Shown: positions 7,686-58,758 of the stretch, piece by piece
Layout: each line of letters starts with the position of its first letter
Numbering within the stretch: the stretch's first letter is position 1
Source: an uncultured Bacteroidia bacterium
GTDB lineage: Bacteria; Bacteroidota; Bacteroidia; Bacteroidales; F082
NCBI GenBank assembly: GCA_902769875.1
Contig: CACXQV010000022.1
Location: forward strand, 74,305-138,304
Length of the DNA stretch: 64,000 nucleotides
Reading direction: 5' to 3'
Made by a program: the position numbers and the translations under genes
Notes under the pieces: generated by a model
What the model saw: the letters and a program-made list of their open reading frames with translations, nothing else
The model's database searches: none
What the model was told of the DNA's origin: nothing

Positions 7686-7758
7686 CGGGATGTAGCGCAG
7701 CCCGGTAGCGCGCTTCGTTCGGGACGAAGAGGCCGCAAGTTCGAATCTTGTCCTTGGT
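7686..7758 (+). pseudogene. tRNA-Pro(CGG)-like sequence with a broken acceptor stem
   Basis: The D arm (GCGC 7695-7698 / GCGC 7708-7711), anticodon arm (CTTCG 7713-7717 / CGAAG 7725-7729, loop TTCGGGA with anticodon CGG) and T arm (GCAAG 7735-7739, TTCGAAT, CTTGT 7747-7751) are all intact and tRNA-Pro-like. The 5' acceptor strand CGGGATG (7686-7692) should be matched by CATCCCG, but the sequence after the T arm is CCTTGGT, which pairs at only about three of seven positions. The 3' acceptor strand seems to have been replaced, leaving a remnant (or an assembly error). Confidence 0.65.
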
Positions 7759-10532: not shown

Positions 10533-10730
10533 ATGAATAGGACATACAAAATCAACTTAAGGAAAGAGGAGGAAGGAGGATATACGGTGTTTGTGCCTTC
10601 GTTGCCGGGTTGCATCACATACGGGGAAACCGTCGATGAAGCCATAGATATGGCCAAGGAAGCCATTGAACTTTATATAGAGGAATTGCAAGATAGGGGT
10701 GAATACGTTCTTGAAACAGGCTGGAATTGA
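10533..10730 (+). CDS. HicB-family antitoxin-like protein without a HicA partner
   Basis: A 65-residue protein with the HicB partial RNase H fold: EEEGGYTVFVPSLPGCITYGETVDEAIDMAKEAIELYIEE. It lacks the C-terminal HTH or arc DNA-binding extension seen in longer HicBs. HicA toxins are normally encoded next door as a small basic dsRBD-like protein; neither flank (10461-10532 or 10731-10870) can encode one. It is therefore an orphan, which may act as a free-standing regulator or be left over from a lost TA pair. Confidence 0.75.
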   Translation: MNRTYKINLRKEEEGGYTVFVPSLPGCITYGETVDEAIDMAKEAIELYIEELQDRGEYVLETGWN

Positions 10731-10869
10731 ATAACACCTTTTGTTTAGACCATAATATTTGAATTCAATAAGTGGAAATCATAATATACAAAACAAACAG
10801 CACATATATCAAAGAACAACTAAAACAGACACATAATCATTTAGAATAGCATTTCAAAAACGAATTCTT

Positions 10870-11013
10870 AGCCCTAAATTTCCACATAGTCTCGTTAGAG
10901 ACGGCTCAACAAGAAAACGTTATGAAACGCCATTATTTGGCGTGGAATAACTTGAAGTTGAGCGGGCGTGGAAACCCTAGGGCTGACAAGTTGATCAAAT
11001 TCCACGCTTTTTT
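10870..11013 (+). ncRNA. Structured RNA, copy 1 (unrecognised family)
   Basis: A nested fold can be drawn. P1 is GCCCTA 10871-10876 with TAGGGC 10978-10983. P2 is TTTCCAC 10879-10885 with GTGGAAA 10968-10974. Hairpin P3 is GTCTC/GAGAC (10889-10902). P4 is GCTCAAC 10904-10910 with GTTGAGC 10957-10963. Hairpin P5 is CGCCA/TGGCG (10928-10942). In addition GCGTGGAA 10940-10947 can pair with TTCCACGC 11000-11007, which is followed by six T and then the ATG of the next gene. A second copy at 55770-55914 keeps every stem with different bases. It does not match any riboswitch or small RNA motif I know. It could be a leader element controlling the XRE gene, or an independent RNA with its own terminator. 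Confidence 0.75.
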
Positions 11014-11223
11014 ATGCACATCGGGCAACATATCAAAGAGGTCATGCGACAGCAAGGTGTTACGGCCACAAAGTTGGCTGAGGACATTTGTTGTGCTCGC
11101 CCGCATATCCATAGGATTTTCCGTAAGGAGAATATGGATATTGCCCTGCTTGAGCGTATTTCCAAGGCATTGAATTATGACTTCTTCCGCGACCTTTCCG
11201 AAGAGTTTCAAGGGAAAGTGTAA
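11014..11223 (+). CDS. Small XRE-type HTH regulator
   Basis: A 69-residue protein that is almost entirely a lambda-repressor-like HTH: IGQHIKEVMRQQGVTATKLAEDICCARPHIHRIFRKENMD, with helices 2 and 3 around residues 17-38. It has no partner domain. Its ATG directly follows the U-run of the structured RNA, so its ribosome-binding region lies inside that structure, which suggests translational control by the RNA. No Shine-Dalgarno sequence is visible. Confidence 0.75.
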   Translation: MHIGQHIKEVMRQQGVTATKLAEDICCARPHIHRIFRKENMDIALLERISKALNYDFFRDLSEEFQGKV

Positions 11224-55661: not shown

Positions 55662-55769
55662 CCTTCACAAACGAAAGTCTAACCAAACAATAAACGAATG
55701 ATCACAGCGCATTGGGCGCATCCGACGGAAATAGAAATATTAAAAAAATAGCAATTGTGCTGTTCTTTG

Positions 55770-55914
55770 AACCTCAATTTACCACCCAGTCCCTTCGGGG
55801 ACACCTCAAAGACAAGTTACAAATGCCGTAGTTGCTACGGCGTGGAAAACTTGTTTGAGGTGTGGGCGTGGTAACCCGAGGTTCAGGCAAGGGATTGATT
55901 CCACGCTGTTTTTT
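55770..55914 (+). ncRNA. Structured RNA, copy 2, in the leader of the BspA-like gene
   Basis: Same fold as 10870-11013 with compensatory changes. P1 is AACCTC 55770-55775 with GAGGTT 55878-55883. P2 is TTACCAC 55779-55785 with GTGGTAA 55868-55874. P3 is GTCCC/GGGAC (55789-55802). P4 is CCTCAAA 55804-55810 with TTTGAGG 55854-55860. P5 is GCCGTAG/CTACGGC (55825-55841). GCGTGGAA 55840-55847 can pair with TTCCACGC 55899-55906, followed by TGTTTTTT. Spacing between elements is the same as in copy 1 within a base. Family not recognised. Confidence 0.78.
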
Positions 55915-55959
55915 ATGTCGAATTGAGAAAGAGAATATGAACAATTAAACACTAATAAA

Positions 55960-58758
55960 ATGAAAAAGAGATTTTTACAATTTGGAATGACGGCTAAAGC
56001 CGTGATGATTGCGCTGCTTTTAGGAGTGGCTGGTAATATGTATGCTTATGATTTTTCATATGTTTGTGGAACTGGGCAAACACTGTATTATAACATAATC
56101 AATACAACGAACCATTATGTTGAATTAACTTATCCAGGGAGTTCAATGTGGAATCCTTGGAATGAGTATATTCAACCCGAAGGAGTAATCGAATTACCAG
56201 AGCATGTTAATTATGAAGGAATAGAATATACTATTACTAAAATTGGTAGTTGTGCATTCTCTAATTGTACTGGATTGTCTGGAGACCTTGTTATTCCCAA
56301 CTCTGTAAAAACCATTGATTATAGATCTTTTTATAATTGTGTTGGTTTTCATGGTAGTCTCACATTCGGGAACTCTTTGACGTATATTGGACAAGAAGCA
56401 TTTCAAAATTGTTCCAATCTATCAGGAAACTTGGTGATTCCAAACACTGTTAAGACCATTTCTGGAGGAGCTTTTAAGGAGTGTAGTGGTTTTTCGGGCA
56501 CACTCACTCTTGGTAATTCATTAGAATACATCGTATTAGAAGCGTTTTATAATTGCATTGGCATATCCTCGTTTTCAATTCCAGCATCCGTAATAGTAAT
56601 AGGAGAGAATGCTTTTTATGGGACAGGTTGGTATAACAACCATTCTAATGGTGTATTGTACCAAAGTAATTGGTGTTTAGGATATAAAGGGACTGCAAGT
56701 GGAACTTTGACTATTAATATAAATACTAGAGGCATCGCAAGTCATGCTTTTTATGGAAAGACATTCAGCAAAATATACTATAATGCTATAAATTGTATGG
56801 ATGTATATGAAGATAATGTTCCTCCTTTCAAAAATTGTTCAGGTTCACTTGTTATTGGAAACAATGTAGAAAGGATACCTTCTTTTATGTTTCAATGGGC
56901 CAATATCTCTGGTAGTATTCTTATCCCGAATTCTGTAACGACAATTGGAAACTGTGCGTTTAACGAATGTAATAGCATTCATTCTATTTCGCTTCCAGAA
57001 TCTATTGTTTCAATTGGTCAGCAGGCTTTCAATAATACAGGATGGTACAATAGCCAGAGTGGTCTATTGTATTTAAATGATTGGTGCCTTGGTTACAAAG
57101 GAACACCAACGGGTTCACTATTAATTCAAGATGGAATAAAAGGAATTGCAGACTATGCTTTCCATAATTGTTCAGGTTATAATGGAAATCTTACTTTGCC
57201 CACATCTTTAGTTTATATTGGAAACAATGCGTTTTATGGATGCAGTTTTATCGGTTCTTTGGAAATACCTAATTCAGTAGTTTCGATAGGGTATTCTGCT
57301 TTCATGTTTTGTTCTCACTTTAACGGAAGTTTATTCATTCCTCAATCTATTATTGCAATAGGTAATGGTGCATTCTATTATTGTCCGGGGTTTACTTCCA
57401 TGACCGTTTTTGCAGATAATCCTCCGATTCTTGGAGACTTCGTTTTTGAGTATGTAAATAAATCCATTTTCGTTTATGTCCCATACGGCACGATGGCTGC
57501 TTACCAAGCTGCTCCGGGTTGGAGTGATTTCACAAACTATCAAGAAATCGCCTATAAATCCATCCCAGGCTACGGTCAAGGCAACGGCAATTGGCAATTC
57601 ATCGCCTCACCACTTGCAGAAAACACCGCTCCAACTGAAATCGACGATATGCTTCCCACTACTGGCACATACGACCTCTACCGTTTCGACCAAACCGAAA
57701 ACGCCGAATGGAGAAACTATAAGGCTAACAATTTCAACCTCGTGAATGGCCAAGGCTACCTCTACGCCAATGCCGAGGATGTAAACCTCATTTTCAAAGG
57801 CACGTTCAATGAAGACGAAACGAAAAATGTGGAACTTGTTTATGATGCCAATGCCTATTTTGCTGGGTGGAACTTGGTGGGCAATCCGTTCCCCGTCAGT
57901 GCCTACGCCAACAAGAGTTACTACACGATGAACGAAGACGGCTCGGCCATCGAACCGGTTGCGGTTTCAATGGAAACGGCCATTCCCGCTTGCACGGGCG
58001 TAATGGTGAAAGCGGAAAACACGGGCGAGTCTGTTACTTTCAGCAAGACCGCACCCGAAACGGCTGTCAACCAAGGTGTTTTGCAAATTGTGTTAAGTCA
58101 ATTGGACCCTGAGCCTGTCGAAGGGTCGAAGGGCGGCGTTTCGACAAGCTCAACGACCGCTTTAGACAAGGCCATCGTGAGTTTCAACGAAGGTGACGAA
58201 TTAGGCAAGTTTGTTTTCAACAAGGACAACGCGAAACTCTACATTCCGCAAGGCAAAGAAGAGTATGCCATTGCCTGCGCCGAGAAGCTGGGCGAAATGC
58301 CGCTGAACTTTGAGGCTACGGAGAATGGGGAATACACAATCAGCATCAAAGCCGAGAACACGGAGTTTGACTATCTGCACCTTATTGACAACCTAACCAG
58401 CGCCGACATCGACCTGCTCCCCCTCTGCAAAGGGGGCAAGGGGGATTCCCAACCCGCCACCTACACCTTCACTGCCAAAACGACTGACTATGCCTCCCGT
58501 TTCCGCCTCTTGTTTTCCGTCAGCGGGGACGCTGACGACGACAATGACACGCCTTTTGCCTTCATCAGCAATGGTAGCATCATCGTTTCGGATGCCAATG
58601 CCGATGCCACACTGCAAATCGTGGATATGACGGGGCATATCATTGTTAGTGCGGATGTCGCACGCAATATTTCCACCAATGGGATGGCTCCAGGCGTGTA
58701 CTTTTTGCGGCTCATCAAAGGCGATGAAGTGAAGACGCAGCGGATTGTCGTCGAATAA
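55960..58758 (+). CDS. BspA-like leucine-rich repeat surface protein with T9SS tail
   Basis: A 932-residue secreted protein. After a signal peptide (about residues 1-29) come about a dozen BspA-type (LRR_5) repeats of about 23-46 residues, e.g. 'IPNSVKTIGxxAFxxCSGFxGxLTLGNSLxYIGxxAFxNC', to about residue 525. A non-repeat region follows (NGNWQFIASPLAENTAPTEI onward), and the C-terminus (IVDMTGHIIVSADVARN to QRIVVE) is a type A T9SS sorting domain. BspA proteins mediate adhesion. A copy of the second REP family is inserted in frame at about residues 716-735. The leader contains the structured RNA. Confidence 0.9.
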   Translation: MKKRFLQFGMTAKAVMIALLLGVAGNMYAYDFSYVCGTGQTLYYNIINTTNHYVELTYPGSSMWNPWNEYIQPEGVIELPEHVNYEGIEYTITKIGSCAFSNCTGLSGDLVIPNSVKTIDYRSFYNCVGFHGSLTFGNSLTYIGQEAFQNCSNLSGNLVIPNTVKTISGGAFKECSGFSGTLTLGNSLEYIVLEAFYNCIGISSFSIPASVIVIGENAFYGTGWYNNHSNGVLYQSNWCLGYKGTASGTLTININTRGIASHAFYGKTFSKIYYNAINCMDVYEDNVPPFKNCSGSLVIGNNVERIPSFMFQWANISGSILIPNSVTTIGNCAFNECNSIHSISLPESIVSIGQQAFNNTGWYNSQSGLLYLNDWCLGYKGTPTGSLLIQDGIKGIADYAFHNCSGYNGNLTLPTSLVYIGNNAFYGCSFIGSLEIPNSVVSIGYSAFMFCSHFNGSLFIPQSIIAIGNGAFYYCPGFTSMTVFADNPPILGDFVFEYVNKSIFVYVPYGTMAAYQAAPGWSDFTNYQEIAYKSIPGYGQGNGNWQFIASPLAENTAPTEIDDMLPTTGTYDLYRFDQTENAEWRNYKANNFNLVNGQGYLYANAEDVNLIFKGTFNEDETKNVELVYDANAYFAGWNLVGNPFPVSAYANKSYYTMNEDGSAIEPVAVSMETAIPACTGVMVKAENTGESVTFSKTAPETAVNQGVLQIVLSQLDPEPVEGSKGGVSTSSTTALDKAIVSFNEGDELGKFVFNKDNAKLYIPQGKEEYAIACAEKLGEMPLNFEATENGEYTISIKAENTEFDYLHLIDNLTSADIDLLPLCKGGKGDSQPATYTFTAKTTDYASRFRLLFSVSGDADDDNDTPFAFISNGSIIVSDANADATLQIVDMTGHIIVSADVARNISTNGMAPGVYFLRLIKGDEVKTQRIVVE
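58105..58160. repeat. REP-like module inserted in frame in the BspA-like gene
   Basis: GACCCTGAGCCTGTCGAAGG-GTC and GGCGTTTCGACAAGCTCAAC-GACC are the two modules seen at 30107-30240. They are translated as DPEPVEGSKGGVSTSSTTAL without breaking the frame. Confidence 0.75.

Follow-up and report, generated by a model that had tools for sequence, protein, structure and literature searches.

Two segments of the window, a stretch of 64,000 nucleotides (nt) from a Bacteroidales genome, are copies of one structured RNA element of about 170 nt, and sequence comparison with many relatives has shown that its fold, stems P0 to P5 plus a 3′ stem, P6, is conserved and selected on the transcribed strand. 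We think it probable that the element is a Bacteroidota-wide cis-acting 5′ leader that would serve as a bistable transcription attenuator, either riboswitch-like or protein-responsive. Bacteroidota are a dominant phylum in gut, rumen, soil and sea, and to our knowledge few RNA regulators are known in them.

An earlier note on this DNA had drawn five stems, and all ten strands per copy were located in both segments. The true 5′ start lies about 25 nt beyond the boundary drawn there, at hairpin P0, and P0 and P6 are stems absent from the original five. Copies 1 and 2 had 76% mean column identity in a MAFFT alignment, and minimum-free-energy folds of the single sequences (-52.4 kcal/mol for 10866-11014 and -65.3 kcal/mol for 55766-55916) contained the stems as drawn, with P3 of copy 2 partial. 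The features, all on the plus strand, are as follows.

10844-10867, plus strand: P0 hairpin region of copy 1, weak (GAAT/ATTC), aligned to the covarying P0 of relatives
10870-10984, plus strand: nested domain of copy 1, from the fold and the structure of relatives, comprising P1 (10870-10876/10978-10984), P2 (10879-10885/10968-10974), P3 (10889-10893/10898-10902), P4 (10904-10910/10957-10963) and P5 (10928-10932/10938-10942)
10940-11013, plus strand: P6 and T-run of copy 1, from covariation of P6 in relatives; GCGTGGAAT (10940-10948, after P5) with ATTCCACGC (10999-11007), then a terminator-like T-run (11008-11013)
11014-11223, plus strand: gene after copy 1 for a 69-amino-acid (aa) Cro/C1-type helix-turn-helix (HTH) protein (Pfam HTH_26, E 9.4e-6; HTH_3, E 6.5e-6)
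55747-55764, plus strand: P0 hairpin of copy 2 (AATAGC/GCTGTT)
55768-55885, plus strand: nested domain of copy 2, from the fold and the structure of relatives, comprising P1 (55768-55775/55878-55885), P2 (55779-55785/55868-55874), P3 (55789-55793/55798-55802), P4 (within 55802-55818/55848-55862) and P5 (55825-55831/55835-55841)
55840-55914, plus strand: P6 and T-run of copy 2, from covariation of P6 in relatives; GCGTGGAA (from 55840) with TTCCACGC (ending at 55906), and a T-run (55909-55914)
55960-58758, plus strand: gene after copy 2 for a 932-aa BspA-type leucine-rich-repeat (LRR) protein (Pfam LRR_5, E 4.6e-60)

The ATG of the HTH gene abuts the T-run of copy 1, and the BspA-type protein has a weak type IX secretion system (T9SS) tail (Por_Secre_tail, E 1.5e-5, under that model's cut-off). 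Upstream of copy 1, a small HicB-like open reading frame (ORF) was seen by eye at 10533-10730 on the plus strand.

A conserved fold selected on the transcribed strand

Two models of the element were built. R1 came from 20 copies, 19 of the same genus and one from another family (L026), and R2 came from 12 copies, all of the order but outside the window's genus, which were drawn from a divergent full-length class at the weak end of the R1 order list. We refer to the window's own class as class 1 and to the divergent copies described by R2 as class 2. In a scan of the 64 kb with R2, the two window copies were the only matches below E 0.5 (E 3.7e-7 and 1.9e-4), and the third match had E 0.56. A chance likeness of the two copies was rejected, as R2 from other families finds both and the pairing beats shuffles.

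Pairing was counted over P0, P1, P2, P4 and P5 in an alignment of 56 class-2 rows (A6), from which an antisense row was excluded by a stricter cut-off. Standard pairs made up 94.6% of 2151 paired cells, compared to 72.2% after shuffling (reached in 0 of 500 shuffles), and slid controls gave 33.5 to 43.7%. P1 and P2 were paired in 99.1% and 99.7% of cells, with up to six standard pair types per position, and P4 was the weakest stem, at 79 to 90% by part. An alignment of 74 distinct rows, mostly class 1 and with one antisense artefact retained (A3), was 93.1% paired, compared to 73.2% when shuffled (0 of 500 reaching). Both alignments were fitted to their own models, so that these counts lean towards structure, and the shuffles and permutations keep relatedness in, such that copies of the same genus are not independent. 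The earlier note had argued that different bases keep the pairing, and the divergent copies bear this out, with 449 double-sided changes against a shuffle mean of 120.

GU or UG cells outnumbered AC or CA cells 164 to 22 in A6 and 223 to 49 in A3, and the sense RNA is therefore what selection keeps. The near-palindromic fold also gave the models weak matches on the opposite strand. An attC-like or REP-like DNA hairpin was rejected on the GU bias.

Long-range contacts were assessed by comparing the match of a copy's own strands with that of strands swapped between copies. In class 2, the P0 loop matched the joint between P4 and P5 (J4/5) with a mean of 11.68, compared to 10.38 for swapped strands (0 of 3000 permutations), and two control segments for the P0 loop gave no signal (450 and 2065 of 3000). 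The same contact was not significant in class 1 (197 of 3000). A 5′ TTCTTG likewise matched a CAAGAA within P4 in class 2 (13.25 versus 10.11; 0 of 3000); as fixed columns, these strands paired in only 212 of 300 cells, with slid controls at 0.42 to 0.67. We conclude from the alignments that the fold is under selection as RNA.

Distribution and known RNA families

DNA searches matched three places in the genome of origin with copy 1 and 24 of 60 genomes, its own included, with copy 2. A covariance-model search, of the kind proposed in the earlier note, yielded many homologues across genus, order, class and phylum. The E-values behind the counts are rough, filters were stricter for searches of more than 40 genomes, and the own genome is included throughout. 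R1 had matches in 72 of the 99 genomes in the genus (27 being without a match) and in 31 of 393 genomes in 19 of 206 genera in a draw from the order. R2 had matches in 105 of 395 genomes in 63 of 197 genera in a draw from the class and in 30 of 247 genomes in a draw from the phylum, of which eight carried the label of the same phylum but another class. The genome of origin itself held 16 places by R2, five by R1 and 18 combined; among the weakest of them, one (C107, 5e-4 by R2 alone) may be false and another (C104) scored 8e-4 by R2 and 5.7e-14 by R1. Thus, the two copies first described are both genuine in the window, and two is too low a number for a family with 18 places in its own genome and a wide spread.

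The element was described at the outset as a covarying structured RNA of unrecognised type, and this description holds: covariation is strong across many homologues, and comparison with Rfam 15 gave no family at or above gathering threshold on the element. At gathering threshold, the whole window had two tRNA matches and none on the element. Copy 1 had no match at E of 10 or less, and copy 2 had three, all far below threshold. Among 14 further searched loci (six at gathering threshold, one of them window copy 1, and eight at E of 1 or less), none had a match on the element. As no score on the element reached a gathering cut-off in the window or in these 14 loci, each of the 4227 Rfam 15 families was rejected. 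Neither a known Rfam family nor homologues without covarying stems, the two outcomes that had been named as telling against the original claim, were found. Separately, an Rfam tRNA match of 43.5 bits at 7692-7752 on the plus strand had no ARAGORN call and is possibly a truncated or unusual tRNA.

A full-text literature search, of a kind that does not reach supplementary listings, returned no published description, and an earlier unlabelled listing is possible. Six Bacteroidota terms were absent from the main text of two discovery papers (PMC11109978, PMC8632094). In Flavobacterium psychrophilum, 64 structured 5′ regions and Flavo-1 are described in one report (PMC9723704). Flavo-1 resembles the present element in being a structured Bacteroidota RNA with many copies (PMC9723704) and differs in being a separate family of 76 positions. 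Flavo-1 (RF01705) was rejected, as its model had no match on the element in eight loci and the window. One Flavo-1 match (63 bits) was seen at 1057-1132 of locus L096, about 370 nt before a leader copy at 1501-1671. Fremin and Bhatt (2021) list 3161 candidates, with four palindromic ones mainly from Bacteroidetes (PMC8040213). One candidate described there, HMP2_4205, is 132 bp long, mostly from Bacteroidetes and near TPR genes, with a predicted terminator (PMC8040213). TPR domains occur near both HMP2_4205 and the present element, and by this description the two may or may not be the same RNA.

Placement before genes and the 3′ stem

Placement was counted over 118 distinct copies drawn from loci L001 to L134, with L135-L192 and L193-L231 outside the counts; places already fetched (L003, L034-L036, L038, L041, L042, L049, L051, L053, L060, L062, L063 and L066) and two loci identical to other copies (L013 and L020) were left out. 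In 112 of 113 copies, the first downstream gene shared the strand of the element; the other five copies lay near a contig end without a callable gene, and the caller favoured same-strand ORFs (60 aa versus 100 aa). With equal strand thresholds, same-strand genes were found in 107 of 110 cases downstream, compared to 70 of 113 upstream. The first gene started within 60 nt of the element end in 77 of 113 copies, none of which had a TAnnTTTG box in between; it lay further away in 36, seven of which had a box in between. SusC-type genes stood about 180 to 710 nt from the leader, mainly in family f173. In 73 of 118 copies, a TAnnTTTG box, which we take to be the known Bacteroidota -7 motif, occurred within 140 nt upstream of the element; the count was 10 of 118 for the other strand and 25 of 112 for a stretch further upstream.

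A promoter-like box upstream, a terminator-like end and many copies per genome are also what an autonomous trans-acting small RNA would have, with its own promoter and terminator and the downstream gene a mere neighbor. Such an RNA would need neither the same-strand gene (112 of 113) nor the box-free spacing of at most 60 nt (77 of 113), and we consider it decidedly unlikely. A same-strand gene at short distance and a structure backed by compensatory change are together characteristic of cis-regulatory leaders, and the same-strand first gene in 112 of 113 copies therefore argues for a cis-acting leader.

P6 pairs the segment that immediately follows P5 with the segment directly 5′ of the T-run, and it was not part of R2, the model behind the class-2 alignment. 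In that alignment, the P6 core was paired in 99.1% of cells. With its outer pairs, P6 was paired in 94.0% of cells compared to 89.1% after shuffling, a value that stays high because the P6 columns are so conserved, and 21 cells were double-changed compared to a shuffle mean of 7.6 (0 of 500 reaching). The outer pairs as first tried, as aligned columns, were paired in 181 of 298 cells. Variants that keep the stem were seen by eye: GGGGTGG/CCACCCC (L096 and L098), GCGCGGG/CCCGCGC (L112) and GCGTAGG/CCTGCGC (L134). A script placed the P6 3′ strand in 109 of 118 copies, with nine unplaced. In 105 of the 109, 6 or more of the 9 nt that follow this strand are T, and the remaining four have fewer. 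The putative terminator stem is thus followed by a T-run, as in an attenuator.

In class 2, the 5′ strand of P6 doubles as the 3′ strand of P5 (GCTCACGC/GCGTGGGC), and P5 and P6 would therefore be mutually exclusive. In class 1, the overlap is only 2 to 3 nt, so that simple exclusion of P5 by P6 does not apply there. The loop of P6, about 50 to 60 nt, contains the 3′ strands of P1, P2 and P4, and P6 thus either is a pseudoknot or replaces these stems, either of which is unusual for an intrinsic terminator. Moreover, in class 2 the P6 3′ strand matched the downstream 70 nt of its own copy better than that of others (12.67 versus 11.76; 0 of 2000 permutations, over 55 of 56 loci, one lacking sequence). 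By eye, the downstream partner in many class-2 copies is a short hairpin that precedes the start codon and has a GGGACT-like loop; none was seen by eye in class 1.

A covarying domain with a terminator-like 3′ stem points most simply to attenuation. The leader RNA would be made from its own promoter and would pick one of two 3′ ends. If P6 formed beside the T-run, transcription would stop and leave a short leader transcript, and if P6 were held off, polymerase would continue into the gene. In class 2, GCGTGGGC could form P5 with its upstream partner or P6 with the segment that borders the T-run, in the manner of an antiterminator and a terminator; P5 and P6 are both supported by covariation and share bases in class 2. 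The knotted 5′ domain, held by the P0 loop with the joint before P5 and by TTCTTG with CAAGAA in P4, may be the sensor that decides between P5 and P6. The arrangement resembles that of transcription-attenuating riboswitches in being a 5′ leader with a complex covarying domain and alternative stems beside an intrinsic-terminator-like T-run, and it differs in that the predicted terminator stem encloses the domain as a pseudoknot and the downstream genes are mixed (surface, regulator and some defence genes) rather than of one pathway.

Downstream genes and mobility

Proteins of 106 of the 112 same-strand genes were scanned, omitting five doubtful ORFs (L015, L079, L087, L108 and L117) and one near-identical to that of L084 (L088). 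Pfam domains included the TonB plug (10), CarbopepD_reg_2 (10), the T9SS tail (9), HTH_26 (7), BspA LRR (5) and the response regulator (3), and TPR domains were also present; SusC/RagA proteins numbered 10 of the 106. Signal peptides, scored by a crude in-house rule, were assigned to 55 of 113 downstream ORFs, compared to 11 of 131 upstream. PADLOC gave few matches: one copy was followed by ZorA2 and two by methyltransferases. Directly after the leader stood Zorya ZorA/ZorB at L206:2255-4408 (one copy of genome G177) and genes for a SNF2/PLD helicase and then a type IIG-like restriction enzyme at L197:1255-8165 (one copy of the genome of origin). In the genome of origin, another copy preceded an N6 methyltransferase gene, and the others, mostly judged by eye, preceded BspA-type, lipoprotein-like or unassigned genes. 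No single metabolic theme or family emerged among the 106 proteins, which counts against a riboswitch-like attenuator, as most riboswitch classes would show a theme. A type III toxin-antitoxin RNA was rejected, as there was no single downstream family among these proteins.

HTH genes akin to that after copy 1 follow the leader in other genomes. The leader might therefore be bound by a protein, such as the small HTH protein encoded after some copies, that would feed back by shifting the balance of P5 and P6. The start codon that abuts the copy 1 T-run and HTH_26 in 7 of the 106 proteins speak for such feedback, but HTH genes follow only a minority of copies and Cro/C1 HTH proteins normally bind DNA, and we regard it as very unlikely.

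EAR and put antitermination RNAs are structured leaders of accessory or surface operons. A processive antitermination element (EAR-, put- or LoaP/RfaH-like), in which the RNA would act by itself or together with a NusG paralogue to modify polymerase so that long, foreign or Rho-prone genes are read to their end, would account for a compact knotted fold with a conserved core placed between a promoter-like box and accessory genes of mixed kinds (BspA, SusC, restriction and Zorya) that share no metabolic theme. Unlike EAR and put, however, the leader ends in its own T-run and has no Rfam match; that the T-run comes directly after P6 in 105 of the 109 placed copies speaks for a stop at the element, and not all downstream genes are long, the HTH gene encoding just 69 aa. 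An antitermination element is unlikely, and attenuation is the reading that we prefer.

A broader form of attenuation is tentative, and we offer it as a possibility: a phylum-wide pseudoknotted switch could answer one general cue and bring surface proteins (SusC, BspA and T9SS cargo) under shared attenuation together with small regulators and some anti-phage systems. Its terminator would form solely as a pseudoknot enclosing the sensor, and in many class-2 copies a second hairpin ahead of the start codon would compete, through its loop, for the terminator strand. If true, a large RNA regulon absent from Rfam 15 would lie before surface and sometimes phage-defence genes, raising the testable question of a common signal for the leader-bearing genes, and the leader would provide a natural example of a pseudoknotted terminator.

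Matches on mobile elements were few. Four plasmid queries gave two matched plasmids only, both mobilizable, and two of the four, window copy 2 and L100, gave none. On the plasmid of Rhizosphaericola mali, the match is followed after about 90 nt by a hypothetical gene, and on that of Chryseobacterium shandongense, the next gene in an incomplete gene table, for a T9SS-sorted protein, starts about 0.9 kb beyond the match. Neither a search of phages with copy 2 nor scans of viral contigs with two exact patterns gave a match, and these searches lent no support to a phage origin. An integron attC site was rejected, as the element lies 5′ of genes and its GU bias favors sense RNA. That the element acts as DNA, as a mobile hairpin (attC-like, REP-like or MITE), is barely credible: it is multicopy and near-palindromic (seen in the weak antisense matches), it recurs by eye at sites near toxin-antitoxin-like genes, and it is found on two mobilizable plasmids, but the GU bias indicates strand-specific RNA selection, genes follow on the same strand, a T-run and a promoter box flank it, and the phage search and both viral-contig scans were negative.

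Several further observations concern the neighborhoods. In the window's genus, the leader was often seen by eye behind small toxin-antitoxin-like pairs at recurring sites, after cysS, bioB, rlmB and an ATP synthase gene (L007, L008, L009, L012, L016, L018, L019, L030 and others). At L012 and L013, a stretch about 75 nt 5′ of P0 is common to class-1 copies whose upstream genes differ, as would be expected if the whole unit moved together. With gene names assigned by eye, class-1 neighborhoods suggest a possible mobile cassette of toxin-antitoxin pair, RNA and cargo. Within one family (L121, L124 and L128), a similar stretch, ATTCTTAGC...CGCA, was seen by eye between the leader and a SusC-type gene and may be another element.
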